DNA of 64,000 bases, taken from an uncultured Bacteroidales bacterium (lineage in GTDB: Bacteria; Bacteroidota; Bacteroidia; Bacteroidales; UBA932). A program made the position numbers and the translations under genes. The stretch spans positions 186,001 through 250,000 of the forward strand of contig ONJB01000004.1 in NCBI GenBank assembly GCA_900318015.1, read 5' to 3'. The notes beneath the pieces are model-generated. The model was not told the DNA's origin. It saw only the letters and a list, made by a program, of their open reading frames with translations, and did not search any database. Below, piece after piece: positions 40,402 through 53,685 of this stretch. Position 1 is the stretch's first letter, and each line of letters opens with the position of its first letter.

Positions 40402-41885
40402 TCCATACCATCTCCACCGGCCGCATCACCCTCGAGCGGCTGAAAGAAATCATCGACAACCATGCCACCCTCGTCCTCTCGGAAGAGGCGAAGATGGCCA
40501 TCCTCAAGTGCCGCCGCTACCTGGACGAGAAGATGAAAGACCCGGAGAAACCGATGTACGGTATCACCACGGGCTTCGGTTCCCTCTATAATGTCACCAT
40601 TCCGAAGGACGACCTTTCCCAGCTCCAGCATAACCTCGTGATGTCGCACGCCTGCGGCGCCGGCGAGACCGTCCGCCCGGAAATCGTGAAGCTGATGCTG
40701 TTCCTGAAGGCCCAGAGCCTGTCCTACGGCCATTCGGGCGCGCAGCTCATCACGGTGCAGCGGCTCATCGACATGTTCAACGAGGATGTCCTCCCGGTCG
40801 TATACCAGCAGGGTTCCCTCGGCGCCTCCGGTGACCTCGCCCCCCTCGCCCACCTGAGCCTCCCGCTCATCGGCATGGGCGAAGTCCTGTACAAGGGAGC
40901 GGTCCGCCCCGCCGTGGATGTATGGGCCGAAAAGGGCTGGGAGCCCATCCGCCTCCAGTCCAAGGAAGGCCTCGCGCTGCTGAACGGCACCCAGTTCATG
41001 AGCGCCCACGCGGTCTATTCCCTCCTCAAGAGCATGCGGCTTTCCGCCTGGGCGGACCGCATCGCCGCGATGTCCCTGGATGCCTATGACGGCCGCATCG
41101 AACCGTTCCTGCCGCTGACGCACCTCATCCGCCCCCACACGGGCCAGATCGAGACCGGCAAGAAATTCATGTCCACCCTGGAAGGCAGCGAACTCATCCG
41201 CCGCCCCAAGGAGCACGTCCAGGACCCGTACAGCTTCCGCTGCATCCCGCAGGTCCACGGCGCCGTGAAGGACAACATCAACTACGTGAAGTCGGTGATC
41301 GAGAACGAGATCAACTCCGCGACGGACAATCCGAACATCTTCCCGGACGAGGACATGATCATCTCCGCGGGCAACTTCCACGGCGAGCCCATCGCCATCC
41401 CGATGGACGCCCTCGCCATCGCGATGTCGGAACTCGCCAGCATCTCTGAAAGACGCACTTACCAGCTCATCCACGGCCTTCGCGGCCTGCCCAAGTACCT
41501 GGTTGCCAACCCCGGCCTGAACAGCGGTTTCATGATTCCGCAGTACACGGCCGCGAACATCGTGAGCCAGAACAAGGGCCTCTGCTGGCCCGCCTCCTGC
41601 GACTCCATTCCCTCGTCGCAGGGCCAGGAGGACCACGTGAGCATGGGCTCGAACTCCGCCACCAAGCTGGTCCGCGTCGTAGACAACACCGAAACCGTCC
41701 TGGCCATCGAACTCTTCAACGCCGCCCAGGCTCTCGAGTTCCGCCGCCCGGCGAAGACCTCCCCCATCCTGGAGCGCATCTTCGAAGACTACCGCAAGGT
41801 CGTCCCCTTCATCGACAACGACACCTACATGCACCCACTGATCGAAAAATCCGTCCAGTTCCTCCGTCAGGAGCAGTATCTATGA
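40398..41885 (+). CDS. hutH: Histidine ammonia-lyase
   Basis: A 495-residue lyase that deaminates histidine to urocanate. The tripeptide Ala143-Ser144-Gly145 in GSLGASGDLAPLAHL would cyclise to the MIO cofactor. Other family blocks: YGITTGFGSLYN, LLNGTQFMSAHAVYSLL, SATDNPNIFPDEDMIISAGNFHG (in parts) and SQGQEDHVSMG. Aryl-polyene clusters also use ammonia-lyases, but the overlap with hutU and hutI on both sides makes histidine breakdown the clear role. Confidence 0.96.
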   Translation: MIHTISTGRITLERLKEIIDNHATLVLSEEAKMAILKCRRYLDEKMKDPEKPMYGITTGFGSLYNVTIPKDDLSQLQHNLVMSHACGAGETVRPEIVKLMLFLKAQSLSYGHSGAQLITVQRLIDMFNEDVLPVVYQQGSLGASGDLAPLAHLSLPLIGMGEVLYKGAVRPAVDVWAEKGWEPIRLQSKEGLALLNGTQFMSAHAVYSLLKSMRLSAWADRIAAMSLDAYDGRIEPFLPLTHLIRPHTGQIETGKKFMSTLEGSELIRRPKEHVQDPYSFRCIPQVHGAVKDNINYVKSVIENEINSATDNPNIFPDEDMIISAGNFHGEPIAIPMDALAIAMSELASISERRTYQLIHGLRGLPKYLVANPGLNSGFMIPQYTAANIVSQNKGLCWPASCDSIPSSQGQEDHVSMGSNSATKLVRVVDNTETVLAIELFNAAQALEFRRPAKTSPILERIFEDYRKVVPFIDNDTYMHPLIEKSVQFLRQEQYL

Positions 41886-43108
41886 TTCTCATCAAGAACA
41901 TCGGCGAACTCGTCGGGATCGTGCCGGCGGGCGTCCTGCGGAAGCAGGGCGCCGAGATGGCGGAGACGGGCGTGCTCCGCGACGCCTGGCTCGCCATCGA
42001 GGACGGCAAGATCGCCGGGTTCGGCCAGATGGCCGATCTGGCGGTTGCTTCGACAGGCTCAGCAACCGCCATCGACGCCCGGGGCGGCATGGTCCTGCCC
42101 GCCTTCTGCGACAGTCATACGCACATCGTGTATGCGGGGAGCCGCGACGGCGAGTTCCTGGACAAGATCAACGGGCTCAGCTACGAGGAGATCGCCGCCC
42201 GCGGAGGCGGCATCCTCAACTCCTCCGACCTGCTGCACGAAACTTCCGAAGACGAGCTCTACGCACAGTCGATAGCCCGCGTCCGCGAGATGATGGGCAA
42301 GGGCACCGGCGCCATCGAGATCAAGAGCGGCTATGGTCTCAACCCCGCGGACGAACTCAAGATGCTGCGCGTCATCCGCCGCATCAAGGAGTCCGTCCCG
42401 GCGCTCGTCCGCGTCACCTTCCTCGGGGCCCATGCCGTCGGCCGCGGCTACACGCACGAGGAATATGTGCAGGTGATGGTCGACATGATGCCGCAGGCGG
42501 CGGAATACGCTGATTTCGTGGACGTTTTCTGCGACGAAGGGTTCTTCACCGTCGAGGATACGGACCGCCTGCTCTCGGCCGGTGCGGCTTGCGGCCTTAG
42601 GCCGAAGATCCACGCCAACGAGCTCGCCGTCAGCGGCGGCGTGCAGGTGGGCGTGAGGCACGGCGCCCTGTCCGTGGACCATCTCGAGCGGACGACGGAC
42701 GTGGAGATCGAAGTCCTGCGGGGCTCGTCGACCATGCCGACGATGCTGCCTGGCTCGTCCTTCTTCCTCGGCATCCCGTTCGGTCGCGCGAAAGAATTCA
42801 TCGGCGCAGGCCTCGGCATCGCCCTCGCATCGGACTACAACCCCGGGTCCTCCCCCTCCGGCGACATGCGCTTCGTAATGGCCCTCGGCTGCATCCGCAT
42901 GCGCCTCACCCCCGTCCAGGCCCTGAACACCGTCACCCTGAACAGCGCCTACGCGATGGGCCTGAGCGACATCACCGGCTCCATCACCCCCGGCAAGCGC
43001 GCCGACCTCCTCCTCACCCGCCCCGGCTGGACCCTCACCAAACTCCCCTACCTCTACCAGACCCCCTTCCTCCGGACAGTCTTCCTGGGCGGCCGGCCGC
43101 TGGAGTAA
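41882..43108 (+). CDS. hutI: Imidazolonepropionase
   Basis: A 408-residue metal-dependent amidohydrolase opening imidazolone propionate to formiminoglutamate. Metal ligands and signature: FCDSHTHIVYAGSRDGEF, IEIKSGYGLNPADELKMLR, FLGAHAVGRGY, KIHANELAVSGG and SDYNPGSSPSGDM. The start overlaps the hutH stop (ATGA). In the N-terminal linker before the metal site it contains a 21-bp palindromic repeat in frame (residues ASTGSAT), also present in the exporter gene at 19.9 kb; the family normally has a short variable loop here. REP element A begins 10 bases after the stop. Confidence 0.95.
   Translation: MILIKNIGELVGIVPAGVLRKQGAEMAETGVLRDAWLAIEDGKIAGFGQMADLAVASTGSATAIDARGGMVLPAFCDSHTHIVYAGSRDGEFLDKINGLSYEEIAARGGGILNSSDLLHETSEDELYAQSIARVREMMGKGTGAIEIKSGYGLNPADELKMLRVIRRIKESVPALVRVTFLGAHAVGRGYTHEEYVQVMVDMMPQAAEYADFVDVFCDEGFFTVEDTDRLLSAGAACGLRPKIHANELAVSGGVQVGVRHGALSVDHLERTTDVEIEVLRGSSTMPTMLPGSSFFLGIPFGRAKEFIGAGLGIALASDYNPGSSPSGDMRFVMALGCIRMRLTPVQALNTVTLNSAYAMGLSDITGSITPGKRADLLLTRPGWTLTKLPYLYQTPFLRTVFLGGRPLE
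42041..42069. repeat. Palindromic repeat embedded in hutI
   Basis: GCGGTTGC and GCAACCGC form an 8-bp inverted repeat around TTCGACAGGCTCA. The inner 21 bases (42047-42067) are identical to 19888-19908 on the other strand, and both are read in the frame A-S-T-G-S-A-T. Confidence 0.8.
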
Positions 43109-43118
43109 CCCCCTCTTG

Positions 43119-43208
43119 GTGCTCGTACAGGTCCACCGAATGGACCCATACAAGCAAAAACGCCCCTAAATGCCCGTACTGGTCCAGGCAATGGACCTGT
43201 ACGGGCAC
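43119..43208 (+). repeat. REP-like double-hairpin element, copy A
   Basis: Copy of a 90-91 bp element. Hairpin 1: GCTCGTACAGGTCC, 7-base loop, GGACCCATACAAGC. Spacer AAAAACGCCCCTAAAT. Hairpin 2: GCCCGTACTGGTCC, loop AGGCAAT, GGACCTGTACGGGC. It starts GTGC and ends GCAC. Located 10 bases after hutI. Confidence 0.9.
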
Positions 43209-43248
43209 TCTGTGCATATTGTGGTATAGCATATTCCAACTTTTTGAC

Positions 43249-43256
43249 TATCTTTG
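43249..43256 (+). promoter_or_regulatory. Candidate -7 element for the TlpA-like gene
   Basis: TATCTTTG, 52 bases before ATG 43309, just downstream of REP copy A. No clear -33 box. Confidence 0.55.
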
Positions 43257-43308
43257 TGTTGTGCGATTATCAAAGATTTATTGTTCAAGCAGATCATTTG
43301 TGGGTATC

Positions 43309-44379
43309 ATGAATAAACGGCTTTTCCCCGGTTTGTGCTGGCTTCTTGCATGCCTTTTTGCATGCCAGTCCCAAGCCGAATACTGCACCGTCAAAGGTAC
43401 CGTCCAAGGTGTCAAAGACGGGGCGGAACTTGTTTTGCAGGACGATTGGAACAAAAACAAGGTCATTTCCACGACGACGGTCGAGAACGGGACCTTCGAG
43501 TTTCATCCCCGCATCTCGACCCCAACCCGCGTGTTCCTGTATGCCACGGTTCCTGAGGATGTCTATGCCAATCCATATGACGGAGGTCAATTGAAGGATT
43601 TCTTCCTGGAGCCCGGTACCATTATCGTCGATGTCCATGCCGAGGATGAGATGGACATGGTCACGGGCGCGTCAGGGACGGTCCTGAACGACGCCTACCG
43701 GAAGATCCAGGCTGCGGATGTGGATGCCCGAGATGCTCTTTGGGAAGAAGCGGTCCGTGATGAACGGACGAATCTCCTGGCTTTGGTATATGCCGACAGA
43801 CATTCCGACGATCTCGACAAGGCATCGGAGATCCTTGACCGTTTGTCCCCGGACTTGGCCAAGAACTATAAGAAAACGATCTCGACCTTGAAAAAAAGGT
43901 GGGTCCTCAGAGCCCAAAGGGCAGAAAGAAGGAAAAAAGCCGCCGAAGAAGCCGTGAGTCTCGTCCATCAGCCGTACATCGACATGGAGTATCCGGATAC
44001 GGACAACGCCCCCGTCCGCCTGAGTTCGGTCGTCAACAATCCCGCAAACCGCTATGTCATCCTGGATTTCTGGGCGACCTGGTGCGCCCCCTGCGTGCAA
44101 TCCATTCCCACGCTGAAGGAGGTTTATGCCAAGTTTCACGACAAGGGTCTGGAAATCTACAGCATCTCCCAGGATTCCAAAGCCAAGGAATGGAAGACCT
44201 TTGTGGCGGAGAATGGAATGACCTGGATCAATGTCTTGGCCCATGGAGGCAAGGTATATAAGGATTACGGCATCCAGTATATCCCGACCGTCTTTCTGAT
44301 CGACTGCAAGACCGGGGAAATTCTGGTCCACGAAGGCCATCCGGACCTTGATGCCATCCTGTCCGAGTTACTTCCGTAA
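43309..44379 (+). CDS. TlpA/ResA-like thioredoxin lipoprotein with DUF4369-type N-terminus
   Basis: A 356-residue lipoprotein (signal MNKRLFPGLCWLLACLFAC). The N-terminal beta domain (about 22-130, CTVKGTVQGVKDGAELVLQ) resembles DUF4369. A charged helical middle (TLKKRWVLRAQRAERRKKAAEE) leads to a thioredoxin fold with the redox motif FWATWCAPCVQSIPTLKEV and cis-Pro region IQYIPTVFLID. It should reduce or rearrange disulfides outside the cytoplasm. It is the first gene of a lower-GC island between REP copies A and B. It may be unrelated functionally to the small membrane proteins that follow. Confidence 0.88.
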   Translation: MNKRLFPGLCWLLACLFACQSQAEYCTVKGTVQGVKDGAELVLQDDWNKNKVISTTTVENGTFEFHPRISTPTRVFLYATVPEDVYANPYDGGQLKDFFLEPGTIIVDVHAEDEMDMVTGASGTVLNDAYRKIQAADVDARDALWEEAVRDERTNLLALVYADRHSDDLDKASEILDRLSPDLAKNYKKTISTLKKRWVLRAQRAERRKKAAEEAVSLVHQPYIDMEYPDTDNAPVRLSSVVNNPANRYVILDFWATWCAPCVQSIPTLKEVYAKFHDKGLEIYSISQDSKAKEWKTFVAENGMTWINVLAHGGKVYKDYGIQYIPTVFLIDCKTGEILVHEGHPDLDAILSELLP

Positions 44380-44459
44380 GTCGTGATCCACTGGATCAAA
44401 GATTATCGTTGCTGCTTCGCCGATGAATCGCAATCGAATCAGGATAAACAATAAGCATC

Positions 44460-44660
44460 ATGAAAAAACCCATAGGTGCCATCGTCATTTATTCAATTGG
44501 AGTGCTTTTCGGCGTGTATTTGCTGATCAGCAGCATCTGCCAGCATGACCGGCCCATTTCCATCATCTTGACAGCTATCCTGCTCCTCATCTTTGCCGCT
44601 CAGTTGTACCTGACCTTGAAAGGGGCTCGCAAGCAGGATGATGAGAGTTGCGAGCGATAA
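44460..44660 (+). CDS. Small two-helix membrane protein (66 aa)
   Basis: A 66-residue protein with two hydrophobic segments, IGAIVIYSIGVLFGVYLLIS (about 5-24) and ISIILTAILLLIFAAQLYL (about 33-51), and a charged tail (KGARKQDDESCER). No family recognised. It starts 80 bases after the TlpA-like gene with no own promoter seen. REP copy B begins 21 bases after its stop. Confidence 0.7.
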   Translation: MKKPIGAIVIYSIGVLFGVYLLISSICQHDRPISIILTAILLLIFAAQLYLTLKGARKQDDESCER

Positions 44661-44681
44661 TTCAATCTCCAAGTCATCCGA

Positions 44682-44772
44682 GTGCTCGTACAGGTCCATC
44701 GACGGGACCCATACAAGCAAAAACACCCCCGAAATGCCCGTACCGATCCATTCCCTGGACCTGTACGGGCAC
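44682..44772 (+). repeat. REP-like double-hairpin element, copy B
   Basis: Hairpin 1: GCTCGTACAGGTCC, loop ATCGACG, GGACCCATACAAGC. Spacer AAAAACACCCCCGAAAT. Hairpin 2: GCCCGTACCGATCC, loop ATTCCCT, GGACCTGTACGGGC. Same orientation as copies A, C and D. Confidence 0.9.
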
Positions 44773-44823
44773 GTGCAGTTCCGCGGAATTCCTCTGACAT
44801 TCAAACAATTCCCACTTTTTTTA

Positions 44824-44831
44824 TATCTTTG
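44824..44831 (+). promoter_or_regulatory. Candidate -7 element for the small-membrane-protein genes
   Basis: TATCTTTG, 65 bases before ATG 44897, 51 bases after REP copy B. The sequence ahead (CACTTTTTTTATATCTTTG) closely resembles the one after copy A, which suggests duplication of promoter and repeat together. Confidence 0.55.
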
Positions 44832-44896
44832 TGCGGTAGGACTGTTCGAGGAATAACCTCACAGCGAAAATATCTAAAGTTTAACGGATTGGACAT

Positions 44897-45049
44897 ATGG
44901 CAACTTGGAAGATTATTGTCAATTCTTTCCTGATTCTGGTGATTCTGGCCGCATCGATTGCCGTTATCGCTGACTATCGGAAGCATAAGGATGATGAAAA
45001 CATCTCACCCTGGTTACTTTTTGTCCATGTTGTCAGATTCTTCTCGTGA
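44897..45049 (+). CDS. Single-helix membrane microprotein (50 aa)
   Basis: A 50-residue reading frame, MATWKIIVNSFLILVILAAS continuing IAVIADYRKHKDDEN and ending VRFFS. One membrane helix at residues 5-25 with a charged tail. The TGA stop shares its last base with the ATG of the next gene (TGATG), strong support that it is translated. No family recognised. Confidence 0.65.
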   Translation: MATWKIIVNSFLILVILAASIAVIADYRKHKDDENISPWLLFVHVVRFFS

Positions 45050-45474
45050 TGGACTACTACACCTATACCAAACCCAAGCTGTGGGCCAATGTGATTTGCG
45101 CCGCCCTGCTTTATGTCTTGTTCGCCTATGAACTCCATAGCCGTTTGACGGGTCATTCTAAAGGCATCGGTTACCTGCTGTTCTTAATACTTGCTGTGAA
45201 CTGCACGTTCCGGGTGTTTGCCTATGCGAAGCTGAAGCGATTGGAGAAGAGTATCACGGACGAACGGCAATTAATCCATGCCGAGCGTCGCCAAGGCCTC
45301 ATCATCACCCTCTTCAGCAATGCTACGGCCTTGCTTGGCCTGCTGCTTTTCCTGATTCACTCCATCCTCATCAAAGGTCCGGCCGCCCTCGATATCTTCT
45401 TCCTGTTCTGCGCCGTCTGTTTCGGCGGGATTCTGATCCTGACCATCCAGAACCTCAGGCGGCTGGACAAATAA
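45049..45474 (+). CDS. Four-helix membrane protein of unknown function
   Basis: A 141-residue protein with four hydrophobic segments: VICAALLYVLFAYEL, GIGYLLFLILAVNCTF, LIITLFSNATALLGLLLFLI and LDIFFLFCAVCFGGILIL. A cytoplasmic charged loop between helices 2 and 3 reads KLKRLEKSITDERQLIHAERR. The ATG at 45049 overlaps the stop of the 50-residue gene; a GTG one codon earlier is less likely. No family recognised. Co-translated with its neighbour. Confidence 0.7.
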   Translation: MDYYTYTKPKLWANVICAALLYVLFAYELHSRLTGHSKGIGYLLFLILAVNCTFRVFAYAKLKRLEKSITDERQLIHAERRQGLIITLFSNATALLGLLLFLIHSILIKGPAALDIFFLFCAVCFGGILILTIQNLRRLDK

Positions 45475-45497
45475 AGAACAGCAATCAAAGATTTCTT

Positions 45498-45680
45498 ATG
45501 AAACCGAAGGTAAAGAAAACCATCCAGATCGTCTTGGGGAGCGTGTTTTTACTCTCCATTTTTGCATATCTGATCCTGGGCAAGGAATGGGCGAAATTAC
45601 CCTTTTCCCTATCATTGTGCCTTGTCTGTCTCTATAACCTGTTTTTCAACAACCCCGCTTCGGGCGCGAAGAAAGAGTAA
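45498..45680 (+). CDS. Small two-helix membrane protein (60 aa)
   Basis: MKPKVKKTIQIVLGSVFLLS opens a basic N-terminus and first helix, and LPFSLSLCLVCLYNLFF is the second; it ends in NPASGAKKE. Same size class and layout as the genes at 44460 and 45737. Starts 23 bases after the four-helix gene. No family recognised. Confidence 0.68.
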   Translation: MKPKVKKTIQIVLGSVFLLSIFAYLILGKEWAKLPFSLSLCLVCLYNLFFNNPASGAKKE

Positions 45681-45736
45681 GGCTAGATCAGTAGATTCAC
45701 ATCTTGTCGGTCAAGTCAAAGTTTACACAGGAACCT

Positions 45737-45919
45737 ATGGAAAACGATAAGCAACTGAAAGTAGGATTGATTATCGCACTCGTCTTTGCCCTTTTCTTTG
45801 CGGGTATGCTGGGCTATTTCATCGCAGTCAAGAATCTGTGGATGTGTATAGTCTCGGGGCTCATGGTCATTTCATCCTGCACCAGGAGTATTCAACTGTT
45901 TAAGAGGATCAAAGAATAA
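45737..45919 (+). CDS. Small two-helix membrane protein (60 aa)
   Basis: Start ATG 45737 (MENDKQLKVG) gives 60 residues with helices VGLIIALVFALFFAGMLGYF and LWMCIVSGLMVISSCT and a basic tail (FKRIKE). An earlier Met at 45704 would add a polar stretch with no support. It has the same length and topology as the preceding gene, with no obvious sequence identity. Followed by the CPBP protease gene after 27 bases. Confidence 0.68.
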   Translation: MENDKQLKVGLIIALVFALFFAGMLGYFIAVKNLWMCIVSGLMVISSCTRSIQLFKRIKE

Positions 45920-45946
45920 GGTTAGGGAACCCAACACCGTCGAACC

Positions 45947-46759
45947 ATGTGGAAAGCCATCAAATACATCCTCATCTATTTGGCATTTCAAGTGCTTGGC
46001 GTGGTGATCGTCATGATTCCGTGTCATATCCTGGACGCGGATGAAGCCGTGATGCTCGTCAGCGCCCTGGCCGTTGCGAACCTGCTTTTCTGCCTATACA
46101 TTTCCCGGAAAGACAGAATACGTCTCGACAAACAGTCCTTCACAATACGCCCTTGGACCATGCTCCTGCTCACGATCCTCGCCGTTTTCTTTTTCATCCT
46201 GCCGGAGGTGGAACTGATTGAACGGCTGGACCTGCCCAACAACCTGGGAGACGAACTCGATGATGTGGGCGGCACGGTCCTGGGGCTGATTTCGATCGGA
46301 ATCTTAGGCCCGATTGCGGAAGAACTGCTGTTCCGGGGCGCCGTACTCGGCTCGCTGCTGGAGTGGAAGCCGATCCGGTCGATGCCCTGGATCGCCATTG
46401 TGCTTTCCGCGGCCATCTTCGGTCTCGTCCACATGAACCCGGCGCAGATGCCCGGTGCCATCGCAATCGGCCTGCTCTACGGCTGGCTTGTCTACCGGAC
46501 CGGCAGTCTGCTCCCCGGCATTATCGGCCATATCTTCAACAACTCTCTGGCCTGCATTCTCGAAATGTTCCCGGAGGAGGAAGGCAGTCCCGAAACGGTC
46601 GCCGAAATGTTCGACTCCCCCTTCCTGGAATTCCTCGCCGTCGCCGGATCGCTCTTCATCTGCATCGTCGTCGTCAAAGCCATTGTCCGTCAGGTCAATG
46701 AGCATTACATCCCCCAAGAGCCGGACCTGGTTGCCGATGACCTGTCCGGTCAACAGTAA
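45947..46759 (+). CDS. CPBP (CAAX/Abi) family intramembrane metalloprotease
   Basis: A 270-residue polytopic membrane protein, about eight helices. CPBP motifs: IAEELLFRGAVLGSL (Glu-Glu and Arg), SAAIFGLVHMNP (His) and GIIGHIFNNSLACI (second His and Asn), forming the expected metal/catalytic set. Family members process prenylated or small membrane peptides and occur as self-immunity factors next to bacteriocin genes. Directly behind four to five tiny membrane proteins, which makes those candidate substrates or partners; this is inference. Confidence 0.88.
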   Translation: MWKAIKYILIYLAFQVLGVVIVMIPCHILDADEAVMLVSALAVANLLFCLYISRKDRIRLDKQSFTIRPWTMLLLTILAVFFFILPEVELIERLDLPNNLGDELDDVGGTVLGLISIGILGPIAEELLFRGAVLGSLLEWKPIRSMPWIAIVLSAAIFGLVHMNPAQMPGAIAIGLLYGWLVYRTGSLLPGIIGHIFNNSLACILEMFPEEEGSPETVAEMFDSPFLEFLAVAGSLFICIVVVKAIVRQVNEHYIPQEPDLVADDLSGQQ

Positions 46760-46772
46760 TTACGATAGAATT

Positions 46773-47005
46773 ATGACAGCAACCCGTTTGCTTTGTTTCC
46801 GCCATCCTGCTCCCCACGCTGCTGGCCTGTTCCCATTCCAATGAGAGAGGGAGAACGATCCGGACAACGACAGGACGGTCCATTTCAGCGGCACTGTCGA
46901 GAATCTGTCCCCCAGGGATGTGAGAATCGCCCTGGCAGGAACGGACGTGTCATCAAGGTCGATCCCACCCGCGAAGAAATCGAGGCCGCCCTGTCCGGCC
47001 TGTGA
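46773..47005 (+). pseudogene. Decayed small lipoprotein gene
   Basis: Pieces of a lipoprotein are spread over three frames. The start is MTATRLL, then (frame +1) ILLPTLLACSHSNER with a clean lipobox, then (original frame) ENDPDNDRTVHFSGTVENLS up to RIALAGT, then (third frame) VIKVDPTREEIEAALSGL before TGA at 47005. At least three small indels are needed to rebuild it. No family recognised. It is either a decayed gene or a stretch of poor consensus. The remaining 48 bases to the next gene hold nothing notable. Confidence 0.55.
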
Positions 47006-47053
47006 CCACCGGTCAAATCAAGAACTGATTCAATAACCAATCATTTGCCTATC

Positions 47054-47281
47054 ATGAAATTGAAAATGACTGACGACTTCAAGAAGGCTTCCAAAGGAAT
47101 GGTCTTCTATGCGATTACTTCCATCGTCGTATTCCCCATCATTCATCTGATCAAGGGTGACTTCGACTGGGGCGACACGCTGATCAATGCCGGTCTCATG
47201 ATTCTGATCTGCCTCGTCCTGGGCGTCTTTTTCTACTTCGGCATGCAAGTTCCGGAGAAAAACGACCAATCCCAAGAGTAG
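47054..47281 (+). CDS. Small two-helix membrane protein (75 aa)
   Basis: Start ATG 47054 (MKLKMTDDFKKASKG). Two hydrophobic segments, MVFYAITSIVVFPIIHLI and LINAGLMILICLVLGVFFYFG, with the acidic loop KGDFDWGD between, and a polar tail. The TAG stop directly abuts the ATG of the next gene, so the two are co-translated. No family recognised; it fits the series of tiny membrane proteins upstream. Confidence 0.7.
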   Translation: MKLKMTDDFKKASKGMVFYAITSIVVFPIIHLIKGDFDWGDTLINAGLMILICLVLGVFFYFGMQVPEKNDQSQE

Positions 47282-48169
47282 ATGCGACTTAGATCCTTCC
47301 TTTTCACCCTGTGCCTGACGGTGCTGGCGGCGTGCGGGCCGATGGCGCGTACCGCGCGGCAGGAGGCCGCGGGCCCCGCGCAGGAGGCGACCGCCGCGAC
47401 CGCCGACTGGGTATGGACCTACAGCCAGGCCCATCCGGACGGGTTCACCGTGGACATTCGCGATCGGAAGGCACCCACGGAAGGGATTTCCGTCGCGTAC
47501 GCGGCGACGCAGGACAAGCATTCGAAGGAGGACCTCGGGGATGTGGTTTCCCATGCGCTGGCGCACGACGGCTATGTGGGCGGTTGGTGGAACAGCGAGG
47601 ACAGCCTGTATTATTTCGACAGCGTCCGGATCCTCCCGGAGAGCGCCGCCGGCGAGGCCGTCTCCTTCGCCCTTGAGAATGAGCAGCTTGCCTTCTTTGT
47701 GCTGTCCACGGGCGAGGAAGTCCGCATTGACAATGTCATCCATCCGCACGAGTACGAGCCCACGGACCTCCGCGGCTGGACCACCGTCTTCCTGGCCGGC
47801 ACCATCGACAATGGCCATAGCGAGGACTGGCAGCAGACGGTCGCCGCGAAGCTCGCCGGGCGGGATCGACGGTACCTGCTCTACAACCCCCGCCAGGAAG
47901 AATGGCATCCCGAGCGCGAGGGCGAGATGTATCAGGTCCATTGGGAACTCGAGCACATGGAAAAGGCCGATCACATCCTGATGGTCTTCCTCCCGGGCAG
48001 CCAGTCCCCCATCACCCTCCTCGAACTCGGCCTCCACGCCCGCAGCGGAAAACTCCTCGTCGTCTGCACCCCCAGCTTCTACCGCTACGACAACGTCCGC
48101 CTCACCTGCGACCGCTACGGCGTCCCCGTCTATGGGTCGCTGGAGGAGGCTATCGAGGCGCTGCCGTAG
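47282..48169 (+). CDS. Lipoprotein with a nucleoside 2-deoxyribosyltransferase-like domain
   Basis: A 295-residue protein. A lipoprotein signal (LTVLAAC) is followed by a domain of about 90 residues (FTVDIRDRKAPTEGISVAYAATQ, HDGYVGGWWNSEDSLYYFDSVRI). The C-terminal half resembles nucleoside 2-deoxyribosyltransferase-like proteins: TTVFLAGTIDNG, YNPRQEEW, HILMVFLPGSQSPITLLELGLHA (acidic residue in LLELG) and VVCTPSFYRYDNV. Cytoplasmic relatives lack a signal, so export is unusual. GC is high again from here on. REP copy C starts 16 bases after the stop. Confidence 0.7.
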   Translation: MRLRSFLFTLCLTVLAACGPMARTARQEAAGPAQEATAATADWVWTYSQAHPDGFTVDIRDRKAPTEGISVAYAATQDKHSKEDLGDVVSHALAHDGYVGGWWNSEDSLYYFDSVRILPESAAGEAVSFALENEQLAFFVLSTGEEVRIDNVIHPHEYEPTDLRGWTTVFLAGTIDNGHSEDWQQTVAAKLAGRDRRYLLYNPRQEEWHPEREGEMYQVHWELEHMEKADHILMVFLPGSQSPITLLELGLHARSGKLLVVCTPSFYRYDNVRLTCDRYGVPVYGSLEEAIEALP

Positions 48170-48185
48170 CAGGTTACCGACTCAG

Positions 48186-48276
48186 GTGCTCGTACAGGTC
48201 CATGGGCGGGACCTATACAAGCGAAAACACCCCTATAATGCTCGTACAGGTCCATGAGCGGGACCTGTACGAGCAC
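48186..48276 (+). repeat. REP-like double-hairpin element, copy C
   Basis: Hairpin 1: GCTCGTACAGGTCC, loop ATGGGCG, GGACCTATACAAGC. Spacer GAAAACACCCCTATAAT. Hairpin 2: GCTCGTACAGGTCC, loop ATGAGCG, GGACCTGTACGAGC, a perfect 14-bp stem. It lies 24 bases downstream of the transposase gene stop, on its 3' side. Confidence 0.92.
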
Positions 48277-48300
48277 TGAGACCTTCGCGGATGCGAGATT

Positions 48301-49170
48301 TCAAACGCTGTCCATCATCCGGGCGGCTGCTTCATAGGTGAGGCCGGTCACGCGGGCAATTTGATGGACATTGGAGCAGAAACGCCGTTGGATCTGGCGG
48401 AGGGACTCTATCTGCTCCGCAGGAGTCAGTTCCTCGAAACTCTGCTTTCCAAACAGGCTCCGGTAGAGGTCCGGCAGGGCCGTCAGGATGACCTGGTCCC
48501 TGAAGGCAGGATGGTGGTCATCGGCATTCTCGATCTTCCGTTTGGCCTTGGAGGAGTTCACCAGGAAATAGTTCATCCGGCTGGCACGGCGATAGCAACC
48601 CTCCACAAACCCCACAGCCACATACGATTCGGGAAGGACATACCCTTCCTCGGAGACCAGCCAATCGGCAGGAAAACCCTCTTTGCAGCAATGAAGCAGC
48701 CGGATCCGGGCCCGCTTCGACAGGCTCCCCAGAGGCTTCCCGGACCGTTTGGACGCATTGAAGAACACCGGACCCGTCCCCCACGGATACTGCGATGGAT
48801 GCGAGCAGATGTTCGCCGCCACACTGTTCATCTGCGTGTAGGCAATCGCCCTCTCCAACCCCTCGTTCAGCGTAGACACCTCTTCGATGGTGACCTTGTT
48901 CCGACGAAGGAATTCAGCAGTGCCGTACTTGTGGTTCAGATACTTGGAATGACGGCTTTTGATACCGTCGATGAAAGCCTTGACATCCGCCCATCTTCCC
49001 TGGACGACAAAATGAAGATGATTGGACATCAGAATGAATGCAAGAACCGTCACTTTGGATTGATACGCCTGGATGGCTACGAAATTCATCCCGGCCCGGA
49101 AATCGTTCTCGTCCCGAAACCAAAGCCCCTCTTTCAGATGTTCCGTCGTGACCAGATAATATTTTCTCAT
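48301..49170 (-). CDS. REP-associated tyrosine transposase (RAYT, Y1/HUH family)
   Basis: A 289-residue single-strand DNA transposase of the Y1 type related to IS200/IS605 TnpA. HUH motif His51-Leu-His53 in LMSNHLHFVVQG, the fold start YYLVTTEHLKEGLWF, and a candidate nucleophile Tyr77 (or Tyr82) in IKSRHSKYLNHKYG. The Y1 domain ends near residue 135. About 150 more residues follow, ending in LTPAEQIESLRQIQRR and a helix-turn-helix-like segment IARVTGLTYEAAARMM, which may bind DNA. ATG 49170 was preferred to TTG 49179. REP copies C and D flank it in the same orientation, 24 and 94 bases away. No insertion-sequence ends or target duplications are seen. Confidence 0.9.
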   Translation of the reverse strand: MRKYYLVTTEHLKEGLWFRDENDFRAGMNFVAIQAYQSKVTVLAFILMSNHLHFVVQGRWADVKAFIDGIKSRHSKYLNHKYGTAEFLRRNKVTIEEVSTLNEGLERAIAYTQMNSVAANICSHPSQYPWGTGPVFFNASKRSGKPLGSLSKRARIRLLHCCKEGFPADWLVSEEGYVLPESYVAVGFVEGCYRRASRMNYFLVNSSKAKRKIENADDHHPAFRDQVILTALPDLYRSLFGKQSFEELTPAEQIESLRQIQRRFCSNVHQIARVTGLTYEAAARMMDSV

Positions 49171-49191
49171 ACGCCTCAAAATCTATCTCCA

Positions 49192-49199
49192 CAAAAATA
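49192..49199 (-). promoter_or_regulatory. Candidate -7 element for the RAYT gene
   Basis: TATTTTTG on the minus strand, 21 bases before ATG 49170. No TTTG at the right -33 distance. Confidence 0.5.
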
Positions 49200-49264
49200 A
49201 GGAATTGCCCGAAATCCCACAACCCCTTTCCGCAGTTTGTCAGAGAAAGCTCAACAACCTCCAA

Positions 49265-49355
49265 GTGCCCGTACAGGTCCATGGACGGGACCTATACAAG
49301 CAAAAACACCCCTTAAATGCTCGTACAGGTACATCGTCGGGACCGATACGAGCAC
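49265..49355 (+). repeat. REP-like double-hairpin element, copy D
   Basis: Hairpin 1: GCCCGTACAGGTCC, loop ATGGACG, GGACCTATACAAGC. Spacer AAAAACACCCCTTAAAT. Hairpin 2: GCTCGTACAGGTAC, then GGGACCGATACGAGC after ATCGTC, with more mismatches than other copies. On the 5' side of the RAYT gene. Confidence 0.9.
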
Positions 49356-49389
49356 TTAGCGGATAGGAAGGCCCGGGAGGCCGGCGAAT

Positions 49390-50781
49390 TTATAGCACCA
49401 GCGTATTGATTGACCCGACCGGGAGGGTGACCACGCGGGGGCGGCCGGGGAGGCCTTCCACAGATACGGTCTTCGGGGTGTCACTCTGATTCGCCAAAAG
49501 CAAAACCGTGCGGCCGTCGGGATTCAGGAAGCCCAAAGCATCCGCGTAGGTGCCGCCCAGAGTGAGGACACGAGCGCCAGGCTGGACGTAGTGGCTGGCG
49601 TGCTTAAGGACATAATACTCAGGCGAGTAGCGATAAGTCCCCTTCTCTTTGTCCACGACCACCAGGGAGTTTTGGCGCCACATCCAGGTGCTGATGCCGC
49701 CATCCAGCAGGGAGGTGTTCCAATAGAAATAGCTCTGGACACCGTTGCCGAAGTAGTGTTTCATCAGGTCCCAGCTGTGCATGGCGCCGCGCCAGTCGTT
49801 GCGGCCGTCGCCACATTCCTGCTCGGTCTGGTAGCAGGGCAGCAAAGGATGCCGCCGATGCAGTTCCGGCAGCGCATCCTTTCCGGCCCATTGGAAGCCC
49901 ATGCCCTTGATGGACGGTCCCACCTCCGGATCGGCGAGGACGCGGTCCCAGAGCTCGGGGTCGGCCCGTTCCATGGTGCCCAGGTATACATCGACATCAC
50001 GGGAGGCCATCTCCGGCTCCAGGTACTTCAAGAACGCAATTAAACCTTCCGGGGTCCAGGTGCAGGAGGGGAAGACCTGGTCCGAGTTGGGTTCGTTCTG
50101 CGGCATTACCATGAATATGTCGATGCCTTCGGCCTTGTACGCGTCGATGAACTGGCCGAAATACTGCGCATAGGCCTTCAGGTAAGCCGGTTCCAGGATG
50201 AAGGCATCCGTTCCCTCCGGGGTTTCCCGGTCTTTCGGAAGGCCATTGAAAGGGGCGGTCCGGGAGGCATAATGGCGGTTCACTTTCATCCATTCCGGCG
50301 GGCACCAGGGCGAGGCCCATATGCGCAGGGAAGGATTCACGGCCTTCGCCGCCTGGATGAACGGGATCAGCCGCTGGCGGTCCCGGTCGATGGAAAAGTG
50401 CTCCAGCGCCAGGTCGCCGGGGACCTCGTCATAGGAGTAGAATTCTACGCTGAAGTCATTGGCGCCAACCGGCATCCGGGCCATCGTCAAATTCATGCCT
50501 GCAGGCGTGAACAGATCCTCGAGGATCGCCGTCCGGTCCGCCTCGGCTAGCTCCGACAGCGAGGTCCATCCCAGTTCGTTGAAGCAAGTGCCGAACCCCT
50601 CGACCGCCAGATTCACGGCCTGGAGGTCCACGACGACGGAAGCCTCCGCCGGCGCATCGGCCGCGACCGCTTCCATCACCTGCCAAGGATTCTCAAACGT
50701 GGTCGATACCCATTCCACCTTCGCGGCGCGCTGGCATGAGAATGCCGTGAGCAGCGCGAGCAATAAAACCCAATTCCTCAT
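49390..50781 (-). CDS. GH30 glycoside hydrolase lipoprotein
   Basis: A 463-residue GH30 enzyme with a lipoprotein signal (MRNWVLLLALLTAFSC). Family blocks: VEGFGTCFNELGW, RMPVGANDFS, IWASPWCPPEWMK, the acid/base Glu in MPQNEPNSDQ and the nucleophile Glu in CYQTEQECGDG, then a beta-sandwich C-terminus ending in NTLVL. GH30 members act on beta-glucosides, beta-1,6-glucan or xylan. The reading frame is open upstream through REP copy E, but the signal sequence fixes the start at 50781. Probably transcribed with GH43 and the two-component genes. Confidence 0.92.
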   Translation of the reverse strand: MRNWVLLLALLTAFSCQRAAKVEWVSTTFENPWQVMEAVAADAPAEASVVVDLQAVNLAVEGFGTCFNELGWTSLSELAEADRTAILEDLFTPAGMNLTMARMPVGANDFSVEFYSYDEVPGDLALEHFSIDRDRQRLIPFIQAAKAVNPSLRIWASPWCPPEWMKVNRHYASRTAPFNGLPKDRETPEGTDAFILEPAYLKAYAQYFGQFIDAYKAEGIDIFMVMPQNEPNSDQVFPSCTWTPEGLIAFLKYLEPEMASRDVDVYLGTMERADPELWDRVLADPEVGPSIKGMGFQWAGKDALPELHRRHPLLPCYQTEQECGDGRNDWRGAMHSWDLMKHYFGNGVQSYFYWNTSLLDGGISTWMWRQNSLVVVDKEKGTYRYSPEYYVLKHASHYVQPGARVLTLGGTYADALGFLNPDGRTVLLLANQSDTPKTVSVEGLPGRPRVVTLPVGSINTLVL

Positions 50782-50786
50782 AATCA

Positions 50787-50877
50787 ATGCTTGTATAGGT
50801 CCATTCCATGGACCGGTACGGTCAAAAACACCCCCAAAACGCTTGTATAGGTCCAAACAGTGGACCTGTACGAGCAC
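50787..50877 (+). repeat. REP-like double-hairpin element, copy E (variant)
   Basis: Hairpin 1: GCTTGTATAGGTCC, loop ATTCCAT, GGACCGGTACGGTC. Spacer AAAAACACCCCCAAAAC. Hairpin 2: GCTTGTATAGGTCC, loop AAACAGT, GGACCTGTACGAGC. The G-T-type mismatches sit in the opposite arm from copies A-D. It occupies the whole gap between the GH43 stop and the GH30 start. Confidence 0.88.
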
Positions 50878-52928
50878 TATTTCAGTGTAAAGGTCTTCGT
50901 TTTACCCTTGTACGTGCACCGCACGACGCGGGCGTCCTGGTCGATGGCGACCGCCACGGACTTCGGCGCCTTGACGGCAATCTTGCCCGTGACGCCATCA
51001 GGCACGGCCACCTCATAGAATGTATTGTCAGTCAATCCGTTCTGTTCCGTCGTCCAGACGGGATGGGCGGGCATTTCCAGTGCCTGGCCGCCGACGGAAA
51101 TCTTCACGGCCGGCGGGACGGGGAATGCCATCTTCTGCCCCTTCTTGCTAAAGCCGAAACCGACGATGTCGCACAGAGGTTCCTCTGCGGATCCCTCTGC
51201 CACGAGGAACAGGGCGTGCTTACCAGTCAGACCGTCGACGGCGTCACCCAAGGAAACCGTATACTTCCTGACTTCGGCCGATGCGCCGGCGGGGATTACC
51301 ACCTCGCCGACCTTCGTGCCGTTCCAGGCGCCGCCTTCCCAGGGGCCGTCGATCCAGACGCCCACCTTGAAGGCCTGGGCCGTGCGGGCGGCGACGAAGA
51401 GATTGAACGCCGTTCCATTGCCTGGACGCACGCCCTCGAAAGCCGGCAGGCCGGGCGCGCCCTCGGGCAGGCCGCCGAAACCGATGTATTTATACCCCAG
51501 GATATCTCCGGCCCGGACCTCGGTAATGTCCATGCGGTTATCCCAGACATCATAGTTGTCCTGGATCGAATTCGGGTTGGAGAGGTAGCAGGCGTAACCA
51601 GCGGAATAGTAGCGATACGGCGGCAGGCCGTAGATGAAGAAGCCTTCGGACGTCACTTCTGCGCCGCGGTACTCCGAGCCGTCAGAGGCCTTCACCGTGA
51701 AAGCGCCCTGGTACGGGTCGTAGGCGGTAATCCGCACCACGCCGCCTTCCGAAACCGGCTTCTCATCGGCCTGGACGGCCACCGGGGCGACCATCGCCTG
51801 GCGGGCGTAGCCGAAGCCGCGCGGGGCGCGGTGATAGAACACATACCACTGGCCATTGATTTCCGCCAGCGAGCCGTGGGTGTTGTTGTCGCCGAAATGG
51901 GTTTCCAGCGCGGAGCCGTCGCGGGACAGGACGGGGCCGCGGGCGTCCACGAGGACGCCGCCGCTCTTCCAGGGCCCGCGCGGGGTATCGGCATAGGCAT
52001 ACCGCAGGGTCGCATTGCTCTGCGTCAGGCCGTATTCCTGCCCGGAGAAGCCGCTGTACAGGTAGATGTACTTGTTCCCGATCTTCCGGAACGAGGAAGC
52101 CTCATAGAACTGGAAGTCGTCCAAGTCCTCCCCTTCCGCCACGGCCGGGAAGTCGATCATCTCGCCCTCACGGATGCCAGCCCACTGGACGTGCTGCTTC
52201 AGGTCGTCCGCCACGGCCTGTCCCTTCGGCAGATTCGCCAGATAAGACGTAATCATGGAAGGAACCCAGAACGGGTAGTCCGGCTTCCCGTAGCGGGGAG
52301 AATACATCGTGTTCTGATCCAACTCCGTCGCACTGGCCCGCTGAATACCCCAGGCGCCGTAGGCCCGGAAGCCGATGGCATAGTCGGGATCGGAAGGATC
52401 GTCGATCTGTTCGACCAGCACGCCCGGGTCGAAGCCCATGATACTGCCGGGCGTAAGCCGGCCGTCCTGGATGTTCAGAATCGTGAACGGGCCGTCCGGA
52501 CGGTCGCCGACGCACACCATGGGCGTATGCATCAAAGCGTGCGGATACAGGTAATACTTGTGTGAACCGTCATCCCTGCGCATCACCTCCACGAGGTCCG
52601 GCGCATAGATCGTACTCAGGTTTCCGTTCTGAGAGTAAGTGAACACCGGGCCCTCGTCCCGCCAGGCGGTCAAATCCTCCACCGGCGCGGACCATTGCCG
52701 GTCATCCTGCCCGCAGTAGCTTTCGGCGCGCGTATCGTGCGAGCCCGTCACATAGATGCGGTAATGACCGGGATTGTCCGGATCTTCAAACACCCGCGGT
52801 TCCCCGTCAGGAACGTGCTCCCACAAAGGCAGGTAGGGATTACCGATGAAATCGGCGGTCTCGGAGACGGGACCGCCACAGGAAACGACGGCCAGGCAAA
52901 GGGCCGACAGAACTCGTACAGGCTTCAT
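50877..52928 (-). CDS. GH43 glycoside hydrolase lipoprotein with C-terminal sugar-binding-like domain
   Basis: A 683-residue lipoprotein (signal LCLAVVSC). The five-bladed GH43 propeller shows EPRVFEDPDNPGHYRIYVTG (catalytic base Asp), SIMGFDPGVLV (pKa-modulating Asp), FYEASSFRKIGNKYIYLYSG (acid Glu) and GDNNTHGSL (metal-site His). From about residue 410 a carbohydrate-binding-like beta-sandwich follows (NRMDITEVRAGDILGYKYIGFGG). Likely an arabinofuranosidase/xylosidase-type enzyme acting outside the cell. It starts 10 bases after the LytTR regulator gene. REP copy E begins at its stop codon. Confidence 0.9.
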   Translation of the reverse strand: MKPVRVLSALCLAVVSCGGPVSETADFIGNPYLPLWEHVPDGEPRVFEDPDNPGHYRIYVTGSHDTRAESYCGQDDRQWSAPVEDLTAWRDEGPVFTYSQNGNLSTIYAPDLVEVMRRDDGSHKYYLYPHALMHTPMVCVGDRPDGPFTILNIQDGRLTPGSIMGFDPGVLVEQIDDPSDPDYAIGFRAYGAWGIQRASATELDQNTMYSPRYGKPDYPFWVPSMITSYLANLPKGQAVADDLKQHVQWAGIREGEMIDFPAVAEGEDLDDFQFYEASSFRKIGNKYIYLYSGFSGQEYGLTQSNATLRYAYADTPRGPWKSGGVLVDARGPVLSRDGSALETHFGDNNTHGSLAEINGQWYVFYHRAPRGFGYARQAMVAPVAVQADEKPVSEGGVVRITAYDPYQGAFTVKASDGSEYRGAEVTSEGFFIYGLPPYRYYSAGYACYLSNPNSIQDNYDVWDNRMDITEVRAGDILGYKYIGFGGLPEGAPGLPAFEGVRPGNGTAFNLFVAARTAQAFKVGVWIDGPWEGGAWNGTKVGEVVIPAGASAEVRKYTVSLGDAVDGLTGKHALFLVAEGSAEEPLCDIVGFGFSKKGQKMAFPVPPAVKISVGGQALEMPAHPVWTTEQNGLTDNTFYEVAVPDGVTGKIAVKAPKSVAVAIDQDARVVRCTYKGKTKTFTLK

Positions 52929-52938
52929 ATACAGTGTA

Positions 52939-53685
52939 TTATCTTGCAATCGAATATTCCCGCAGATATGCATCAAAGGCCTCGCGATAGGCGTCGGACA
53001 CGTGCAGCAGCCGGTCCCCCACCTTCACGTCGCCGGTGCCGCTCACCGAGGCGACCTTGTCCAGGGCGACGATGAAAGACCGGTGGATCCGCATGAACTG
53101 CCCGGCGGGAAGCATCTCTTCCATCCCCTTCATCGTCACGTGCGTGACGAGCGGCTGTTTCTGCGAAGCCAGGAACACCATCACGTAATCCTTCATTCCC
53201 TCGACGAACAGGATGTCATCATATTCCACCTTCCGGAGGGCGCCGTCAACCTTGAAAAAGGTGGACGTCTTCGCTTCGGGAGCCGGAGCCGCCGGGGTTG
53301 CCGAAGCCGTTGCCGCCTCCTTGAGCGCAAACCATTCCCGCGCCTTCTCCGCCGCCTCCAGGAACTTCTGGTAGCGGATCGGCTTGAGGAGGAAATCCAG
53401 GGCGGAAACCTCATAACTCTCGAACGCGTACTGCTTGAAGGCCGTCGTGAAGATGATGCGGGTGCCGGCGGGGACCATCCGGGACAGTTCCATCCCGCTC
53501 AGGTCGGGCATCTGGATATCCAGGAACACCAGGTCCGGCGCCTGTGTCCGCATCTCGGACAAGGCCAGGACCGGGTCGGTGAAAGAGGCTACCAGCTCCA
53601 GGAAGGGCGTCCTGGCGATGAAATTCTCCAGCATCTTGACGGCGAGGGGCTCGTCGTCCACGACGAAACAGCGCAGGGAGGTCAT
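52939..53685 (-). CDS. LytTR-type response regulator
   Basis: A 248-residue regulator. Receiver domain 1-about 120: RCFVVDDEPLAVKML (acidic pocket), phospho-acceptor Asp in DLVFLDIQMPDLSG, TTAFKQYAFESYEVSALDFLLKPI (Thr and Lys). An Ala-rich linker (ATASATPAAPAPEAK) joins the LytTR DNA-binding domain (FFKVDGALRKVEYDDILFVEGMKDYV in parts, FMRIHRSFIVAL). It overlaps the kinase gene by 4 bases. GH43 follows after 10 bases, so the pair may control the GH43-GH30 genes on the same transcript. Confidence 0.94.
   Translation of the reverse strand: MTSLRCFVVDDEPLAVKMLENFIARTPFLELVASFTDPVLALSEMRTQAPDLVFLDIQMPDLSGMELSRMVPAGTRIIFTTAFKQYAFESYEVSALDFLLKPIRYQKFLEAAEKAREWFALKEAATASATPAAPAPEAKTSTFFKVDGALRKVEYDDILFVEGMKDYVMVFLASQKQPLVTHVTMKGMEEMLPAGQFMRIHRSFIVALDKVASVSGTGDVKVGDRLLHVSDAYREAFDAYLREYSIAR

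Follow-up and report, generated by a model that had tools for sequence, protein, structure and literature searches.

The window, a stretch of 64,000 nucleotides from contig ONJB01000004.1 of an uncultured Bacteroidales bacterium, carries a gene for a RAYT-like Y1/HUH transposase and five REPIN-like units, A to E (Table 1). The units measure about 91 bp each, lie on the plus strand and share 69-88% pairwise identity. Their outer arms are inverted repeats around a spacer, and the foot of the family is GTGC. They are multicopy and, as judged from the ORFs, extragenic. The five copies of the preliminary description were borne out, at the places that it gives. The plus-strand folds beat those of shuffled sequences (z from -3.0 to -7.8); the shuffles folding as well as A, B, C, D and E were 0, 0, 0, 2 and 0 of 200, respectively. 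For B and C, the best plus-strand fold is a single long hairpin pairing both halves. The covariance model R1, built from A-E, matched these five units alone in the window (E up to 0.1), so the earlier claim that the remaining 56 kb hold no other copy is true for the window. The Rfam search gave a single match, far under its gathering score.

Table 1. Units and RAYT gene of the window, with the main parts of the encoded protein.
Feature	Position	Strand	Remark
Element A, two-hairpin REPIN-like unit	43119..43209	+	10 bp past the stop of the amidohydrolase ORF (41882-43108)
Element B	44682..44772	+	Sequence copy; fold and covariance match
Element C	48186..48276	+	Between the 3' ends of ORF 47282-48169 (Nuc_deoxyri_tr2) and the RAYT gene
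Element D	49265..49355	+	Past the GH30 ORF stop, upstream of the RAYT gene
Element E	50787..50877	+	Between the GH30 ORF start and the stop of ORF 50877-52976
RAYT-like Y1/HUH transposase, 292 aa	48301..49179	-	TTG start as listed; ATG 9 nt further in
HUH motif SNHLHF	49009..49026	-	H54 and H56 invariant in 30 aligned sequences
Presumed catalytic tyrosine Y114 in YTQMNS	48838..48840	-	Y114 and N118 invariant in 30 aligned sequences
C-terminal extension, about residues 137-292	48301..48771	-	Largely missing from E. coli RayT

As described earlier, the transposase with its SNHLHF motif is flanked by two units in the same orientation: C begins 24 bp past its stop and D lies 85 bp before its start. 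By alignment, the predicted protein has the HUH motif and the one tyrosine of the class 2 Y1 proteins (RAYT/TnpAREP). The Pfam family Y1_Tnp matches it at 24.1 bits (cut-off 23). The NCBIfam model REP_Tyr_transpos (NF047646) matches it with an E value of 1.2e-10 and 41.5 bits, under the curated cut-off of 80 bits, above which nothing was found in the genome; all 30 aligned RAYTs match this model. Y---NP is the signature of this class; the residue pair after Y--- is NS in the window RAYT, NS, NC or NP in the close group, and NP in 14 of the 21 RAYTs of the far group. The single window protein had no match in a PDB sequence search, and profile A3 matched transposases weakly there (E = 0.033). 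The hhalign comparison of A3 with E. coli RayT was also weak (probability 2%), and an AlphaFold2 model from seven sequences was poor (pLDDT 51.9). The C-terminal extension had no match in Pfam, PADLOC or PHROGs. The TIRYTs (subclass 2.1) are defined by an HTH C-terminal domain and TIRs; here the extension has no family match and the flanks are hairpin doublets, not TIRs.

The family has 11 copies genome-wide. Five are those of the window, and six further full copies (60 bits or more) lie on other contigs. The same genome holds two additional element families of like build. When the window genome and seven close ones are summed, 20 of 31 copies of at least 60 bits lie within about 5.2 kb of the RAYT. 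This distribution supports the clustering of cognate REP-like doublets at the RAYT locus. The suggestion that the elements stay close to their transposase stands as a tendency only.

Long RAYTs (about 290 aa) were matched in 46 of 61 genomes of the same genus. In a wider sample they appeared in 2 of 295 genomes and 1 of 183 genera. Element-like matches were present in 14 of the 27 same-genus genomes with a full close RAYT vs 5 of the 34 without (Fisher p = 0.002). The preliminary description would take copies in genomes that never carried this RAYT as refuting its reading, and these five genomes go part of the way towards that. The five are G013, G033, G044, G050 and G059, and the last has a RAYT fragment. 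Incomplete assemblies or past loss of the RAYT could explain these matches.

Hairpin doublets also adjoin the RAYTs of relatives. A double hairpin lies within 600 bp of 29 of the 47 close RAYTs; under the rule used, none was found for the other 18. Some of the loci are near-duplicates (window/L111 and, probably, L126/L128 and L133/L134). Near RAYTs we counted 46 double hairpins in 55.0 kb, vs 13 in 228.1 kb elsewhere, and these 13 include elements A and B themselves. The flanks often repeat each other. With a threshold of 24, chosen after a first look at the data, 25 of the 46 testable close RAYTs had direct flank repeats, 2 had inverted ones and 19 had none detected. The far group of 21 RAYTs gave 10 direct and 2 inverted, and the controls gave 0 of 300 and 1 of 142. 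Different RAYTs are adjoined by unrelated stem families. Stem identity tracks RAYT identity (Spearman 0.316, with 0 of 2000 permutations as high), which may in part reflect shared host descent.

The geometry is more constant than the sequence of the stems. In 22 elements, the hairpin centres are 51 nt (n = 7), 52 nt (n = 13), 53 nt (n = 1) or 54 nt (n = 1) apart. About 52 nt is close to five turns of B-DNA. Tandem arrays near close RAYTs have a 51-53-nt period in 18 of 24 cases; elsewhere in the same loci there are 2 arrays in 196 kb, neither with this period. The feet of the 22 elements contain TGC in 15 and GTG in 16, and a GT[AG]G foot in the first 10 nt was found in none. The spacers are T/A tracts, and 10 of the 22 elements have a GGCC core. 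In the sampled genomes, these systems form a branch within a single genus, with long RAYTs carrying Y-x-x-x-N-[SCP], mostly GTG/TGC feet and T/A-tract spacers.

Two relatives (L215 and L216) have a colinear site without element E; therefore, single units come and go. The difference could be a gain or a loss, because L219, the sister of L215, keeps a stub of about 20 nt at this site. When empty sites were sought for the copies on C33 and C64, the relatives' DNA at the unit was too diverged among the matches returned, and the left and right neighbours of the C64 copy match separate places in relatives. In L213 and L214, other genes adjoin units A and C. These two loci showed no clean unit-to-unit swap of the kind expected if genes between same-strand units were exchangeable cassettes. 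The thioredoxin-like gene of the A-B interval is present at 85% in G057, whose 9-kb locus L179 had no R1 match.

The anatomy of the units, the unrelated families per RAYT, the correlated divergence of stem and RAYT, the clustering and the presence or absence of a whole unit were all observed. With this evidence, the locus is very probably a RAYT-REPIN system, in which the units are REPINs (inverted REP doublets) mobilised by the RAYT. The mobilisation itself is putative; the one observation that bears on it is the presence/absence polymorphism at E. On single-stranded DNA, the RAYT would recognise the hairpin pair that marks its own family of elements, and it would copy or move the ~91-bp two-hairpin unit in trans. 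Cutting and joining would be done by the RAYT itself, and the stem would be the part that it reads. The fixed spacing of about 52 nt might arise if the two hairpins were bridged by a single RAYT dimer or by two active sites.

We considered whether the RAYT plays no catalytic part and copy changes result solely from slippage during replication, or from ordinary recombination, between direct repeats. Slippage would find good substrates in same-strand copies and in tandem arrays, and relatives have different genes next to the units. This explanation is nevertheless unlikely. At site E, a whole unit stands between unique flanks, which unit-unit recombination alone would not yield, and a near-constant period over unrelated sequences is not expected from slippage.

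Another possibility is that the RAYT and its direct flank repeats form a mobile IS-like unit of the IS200/IS605 type, with the lone units as remnants. IS608 has two end hairpins on the same strand. The direct flank repeats resemble these ends, they are chiefly direct (35 direct and 4 inverted among all 67 testable RAYTs), and gene content beside the units varies among close relatives. However, IS200/IS605 elements have near-identical multiple transposase copies, and none was found in this genome, where the best paralogue is 52% identical. Moreover, the GH30 gene is still found next to the near-orthologous RAYT in all six loci reaching that far (L212, L213, L214, L215, L216 and L219). We consider this reading quite improbable.

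A role in RNA or transcription (terminators or mRNA-protecting 3'-UTR hairpins), with the RAYT as a mere neighbour or past source, is improbable: each of A-E has a stop codon no more than about 35 bp away, their hairpins fold well on either strand and such REP roles are published (PMC8266576), but the orientation relative to the upstream gene is inconsistent (A and B share its strand, whereas D and E are on the other), unrelated stem families adjoin different RAYTs, and the 51-53-nt arrays beside RAYTs were not found further off in the same loci.

Within the RAYT-REPIN reading, a broader idea can be offered tentatively. Dozens of RAYT-element pairs may have radiated in one Bacteroidales genus, the stem being free and the ~52-nt ruler, the T/A spacer and the GTG/TGC feet being fixed. 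The ruler would reflect a RAYT assembly holding both hairpins at once and copying in 52-nt steps, producing doublets and arrays of up to about 15 units. If true, this would define a new class of REPINs and offer natural data from which to read the RAYT recognition code. RAYTs in the genus are numerous and diverged, and a good share of them have an element of their own, in a near-constant geometry. With this set, the protein residues that read each stem can be tested directly, as can the need for the fixed spacing.

Marinomonas belongs to another phylum. As in the REPtrons of Marinomonas MWYL1, the REPs are concentrated near the tnpAREP gene, although those REPs carry GTAG (PMC8266576). Cognate palindromic repeats flank the gene, as in a REPtron, through C and D in the window and at some loci only in relatives. 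The E. coli REP/BIME system with TnpAREP (rayT b0228) is similar in its aligned HUH and Tyr, imperfect palindromes and inverse doublets (PMC8266576). However, E. coli RayT has 165 aa, vs 292 aa here, with 21% identity, and GTAG is essential there (PMC8266576), whereas GT[AG]G feet occur in 0 of 22 elements here. The REPIN-RAYT system of Pseudomonas fluorescens SBW25 shares the extragenic inverted hairpin doublets, the clusters by RAYTs, the tandem clusters and one element class per RAYT. Its spacing varies by family, with peaks at 71 and 110 bp (PMC3116915), unlike the roughly 52 nt found here across unrelated stems.

The preliminary description considered a two-hairpin unit tied to a Bacteroidales RAYT to be undescribed, which is not supported. 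REP doublets with two hairpins are already known as REPINs or BIMEs (PMC3116915, PMC3733652), and the published subclass 2.6 comprises Bacteroidetes RAYTs with atypical hairpins at their flanks (PMC6006769). The likeness to this subclass includes NH[LIV]H, atypical flank hairpins without GT[AG]G and copies elsewhere in the genome. Conversely, its members have a median of 179 aa and YIH[QN]NP (PMC6006769), whereas our close group has Y---N[SCP] and a length of about 290 aa. The close members span 281-319 aa, except the L129 RAYT (245 aa), which reaches a contig end, and YIH[QN]NP occurs in 0 of 68 RAYTs. The literature searched, including the consulted parts of PMC6006769, PMC8266576, PMC3116915, PMC3686654 and PMC3733652, was found to describe neither this clade nor its GTG/TGC feet nor a 52-nt ruler. 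Measured against that literature, the RAYT clade, the GTG/TGC foot and the 52-nt ruler are new; the REPIN kind itself is known. Relatives carry other RAYT versions, many beside their own repeat with 52-nt spacing, so this is a new and unusual branch of REPINs, themselves a known type of miniature mobile DNA. It extends REPIN-RAYT biology in the Bacteroidetes, where the literature consulted notes only "atypical structures" beside the genes of subclass 2.6 and, for subclass 2.4, REPs that are canonical or have a double foot.

The locus is a REPtron, that is, a RAYT gene with flanking cognate repeats, and its repeats are REPINs (inverted REP doublets). The five units share 69-88% pairwise identity. 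In each, two hairpins are separated by a spacer of the form AAAAACACCCC...AAAT. The outer arms, which read TGCTCGTACAGGTCC on one side and the reverse complement of this on the other, are conserved best; the inner ones vary more. Several positions of the first hairpin that are C.A mismatches on the + strand pair as G.T on the - strand. Folding of the + strand beats shuffles in 5/5 units, D being the least clear (z -2.96, 2/200 shuffles). A search of the window with R1, the covariance model built from A-E, gave matches at these five places only. Tandem Repeats Finder (periods 30-200) detected no array of the 51-53-nt type in the window, whose five units are doublets.

Features of the REPtron and tandem arrays flanking RAYT genes in other loci
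Feature	Location	Strand	Remark
Unit A	43119	+	~91 bp
Unit B	44682	+	~91 bp
Unit C	48186	+	~91 bp
Unit D	49265	+	~91 bp
Unit E	50787	+	~91 bp
RAYT ORF	48301-49179	-	292 aa; Pfam Y1_Tnp just over cut-off
Amidohydrolase ORF	41882-43108		Pfam
Thioredoxin-like ORF	43219-44379		Pfam
Rce1-like ORF	45947-46759		Pfam
Nuc_deoxyri_tr2 ORF	47282-48169		Pfam
GH30 ORF	49390-50784		Pfam
ORF	50877-52976		no Pfam match
Long tandem arrays (52-53-nt units, up to 15.6 units)	L146 2193-3002; L130 1436-1876; L153 3945-4316; L169 3982-4295		flank RAYT genes

The NCBIfam model REP_Tyr_transpos matches the window RAYT with E 1.2e-10, yet under its cut-off. In A3, an alignment of 30 RAYT sequences, this model matches 30/30 members and Y1_Tnp 29/30; H54, H56, Y114 and N118 are invariant. 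Compared with E. coli RayT, the HUH motif and the tyrosine align at 21% identity, but most of the C-terminal extension is absent from the E. coli protein. Among the neighbours, the amidohydrolase gene is presumably hutI. An 85% identical relative of the thioredoxin-like gene between A and B lies in another genome (L179 2511-3525, G057:C28), in a 9-kb locus without an R1 match. In the close relative G010, a stretch of 2.27 kb directly beside element C, with the Rce1-like and Nuc_deoxyri_tr2 ORFs, is absent (window 45914-48187 against L111/L212 2257-2517), and ~260 bp of other sequence stands in its place.

Searched with the window protein, the window's own genome (G000; 3.20 Mb, 106 contigs, 92.5% complete) gives eight RAYT-like matches. 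One of them is the protein itself, and the best of the other seven is 52% identical to it. The NCBIfam model adds one more on C58. Eleven R1 copies reach 60 bits: five in the window and one each on contigs C70, C11, C64, C41, C42 and C33. Two further families have the common build with different stems. One is on C99, C86 and C26, and no RAYT was identified for it; the other lies ~1 kb from the C51 RAYT. The copies look extragenic; some are overlapped by long antisense frames, probably spurious in this GC-rich genome. Another repeat set of ~50-90 bp is common to C33 (L051 132-218, 1235-1288, 1384-1470, 3918-3991) and C21 (L197), and one copy abuts a window-family element. C32 has a very distant RAYT-like match (E 1.6e-8), and ~100 bp away from it is a double hairpin whose spacer is A-rich (L044 8077-8165).

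RAYT matches with E <= 1e-20 occur in 46/101 genomes, all 46 from this genus, which contributes 61 genomes (own included). Across the order, profile A3 at 1e-20 matched 2/295 genomes, both of this genus; by genus, it is 1/183. The near relatives are recorded as uncultured Bacteroidales or Bacteroidia MAGs, one from goat reticulum. At least 100 matches are listed at this threshold. We examined 68 RAYTs: the 61 that rank highest in relatives once three fragments are set aside, the two top-ranked matches of the own genome and five weaker ones from it. Of the 34 lower-ranked matches in the list, the 68 include one, from the own genome. Those with identity >= 36.5% were called close (n=47) and the rest far (n=21).

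Comparing 500 bp on each side, a strong same-orientation repeat flanks 25 of the 46 testable close RAYTs, with 2 inverted and 19 showing neither. The far RAYTs gave 10/21, 2/21 and 9/21, respectively. Controls reached the threshold of 24, fixed after a first run in which shuffles reached at most 16, in 0/300 pseudo-genes of the window and 1/142 in the same loci. In a separate scan, 29/47 close RAYTs had a double hairpin no more than 600 bp away, 7 of them on both sides. The 55.0 kb near close RAYTs contained 46 double hairpins, some of which overlap one another within arrays, versus 13 in 228.1 kb of controls, a contrast that is understated because 2 of these 13 are elements A and B (segment choice).

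In 22 elements of different RAYT loci, the hairpin centres are 51 (7), 52 (13), 53 (1) or 54 nt (1) apart. The scan admitted ~40-62 nt, a bounded range but one that extends beyond the values seen. Both T tracts carry much information (1.2-1.7 bits). It is moderate in the feet (0.7-0.8) and at three of four +/-5 positions near the apex (0.9-1.0), and low at most stem positions (~0.05-0.6), except position -8 (0.8). Since each element was oriented to give a T-rich spacer, T over A is partly by construction; the agreement of both tracts is not. The spacer contains GGCC in 10/22 elements. Within the first 10 nt, GTG occurs in 16, TGC in 15 and GT[AG]G in 0 of the 22. Within 800 bp of close RAYTs, Tandem Repeats Finder (periods 30-200) made 24 array calls, 18 with period 51-53; the remaining six include three (105, 106 and 159) that could be multiples of such a period. 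The remaining 196 kb gave 2 calls (periods 33 and 39). At far RAYTs, there are arrays of 52-nt units in L159 and L169 and of 72-73-nt units in L163 and L170.

R1-type units remain beside near-orthologous RAYTs (86-97%). In 22 diverged pairs, identity of the RAYTs correlates positively with that of the outer stem arms (Spearman 0.316, 0/2000 permutations as high), shared host descent still being included. R1 matches (E <= 1e-5) are present in 14/27 genomes of this genus that have a full close RAYT (E <= 1e-60) and in 5/34 that lack one (Fisher 0.002). Counting each place once and excluding weaker matches, G000, G010 and G355-G360 hold 11, 3, 6, 1, 5, 1, 2 and 2 copies >= 60 bits. Within ~5.2 kb of the RAYT are 5, 3, 4, 1, 3, 1, 2 and 1 of them (20/31; several assemblies break near the RAYT).

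Site E separates the start of the GH30 ORF from the stop of the next. In the relatives' loci L215 and L216, the sequence to either side of it is colinear with the window (L215: 1,340 and ~3,500 bp). The site measures 20 bp in L215 and 15 bp in L216, versus 108 in the window. The window reads CTCATAATCA[unit]TATTTCAG and L216 reads CTCATATCTATTTCAC, with no obvious target duplication. Therefore, the whole unit is present or absent. Element E is present in L213; of it, L219 has just the first ~20 nt, and another repeat comes next. The latter is a different palindrome (GATTCCTTCG...CGAAGGAATC), as though a second repeat had inserted into the stub. L215 and L219 are sisters in the GH30-gene tree. 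Element E was therefore either lost at least once or gained more than once. In L216, RAYT and hutI adjoin each other with no unit detected between them; this locus thus lacks A, B and C.

Several of these properties are already known from other systems. Inverse REP doublets with conserved spacers have been described (PMC3116915, PMC3733652), and so have REPs that cluster near the RAYT gene (PMC8266576) and atypical hairpins beside RAYTs of Bacteroidetes (PMC6006769). REPs that flank the gene as inverted repeats were the arrangement by which classical rayt genes were sought and described (PMC3686654). The direct orientation of whole units here does not contradict this, because each unit is itself an inverted doublet. 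What sets the system apart from these is a RAYT clade with proteins of ~290 aa, found in one genus and having Y---N[SCP] in close members. It also differs by its GTG/TGC feet and by a ~52-nt spacing common to doublets and arrays of unrelated stems. Two families of the single genome of Pseudomonas fluorescens SBW25 are spaced 71 and 110 bp (PMC3116915), whereas here ~52 nt holds across unrelated stems.
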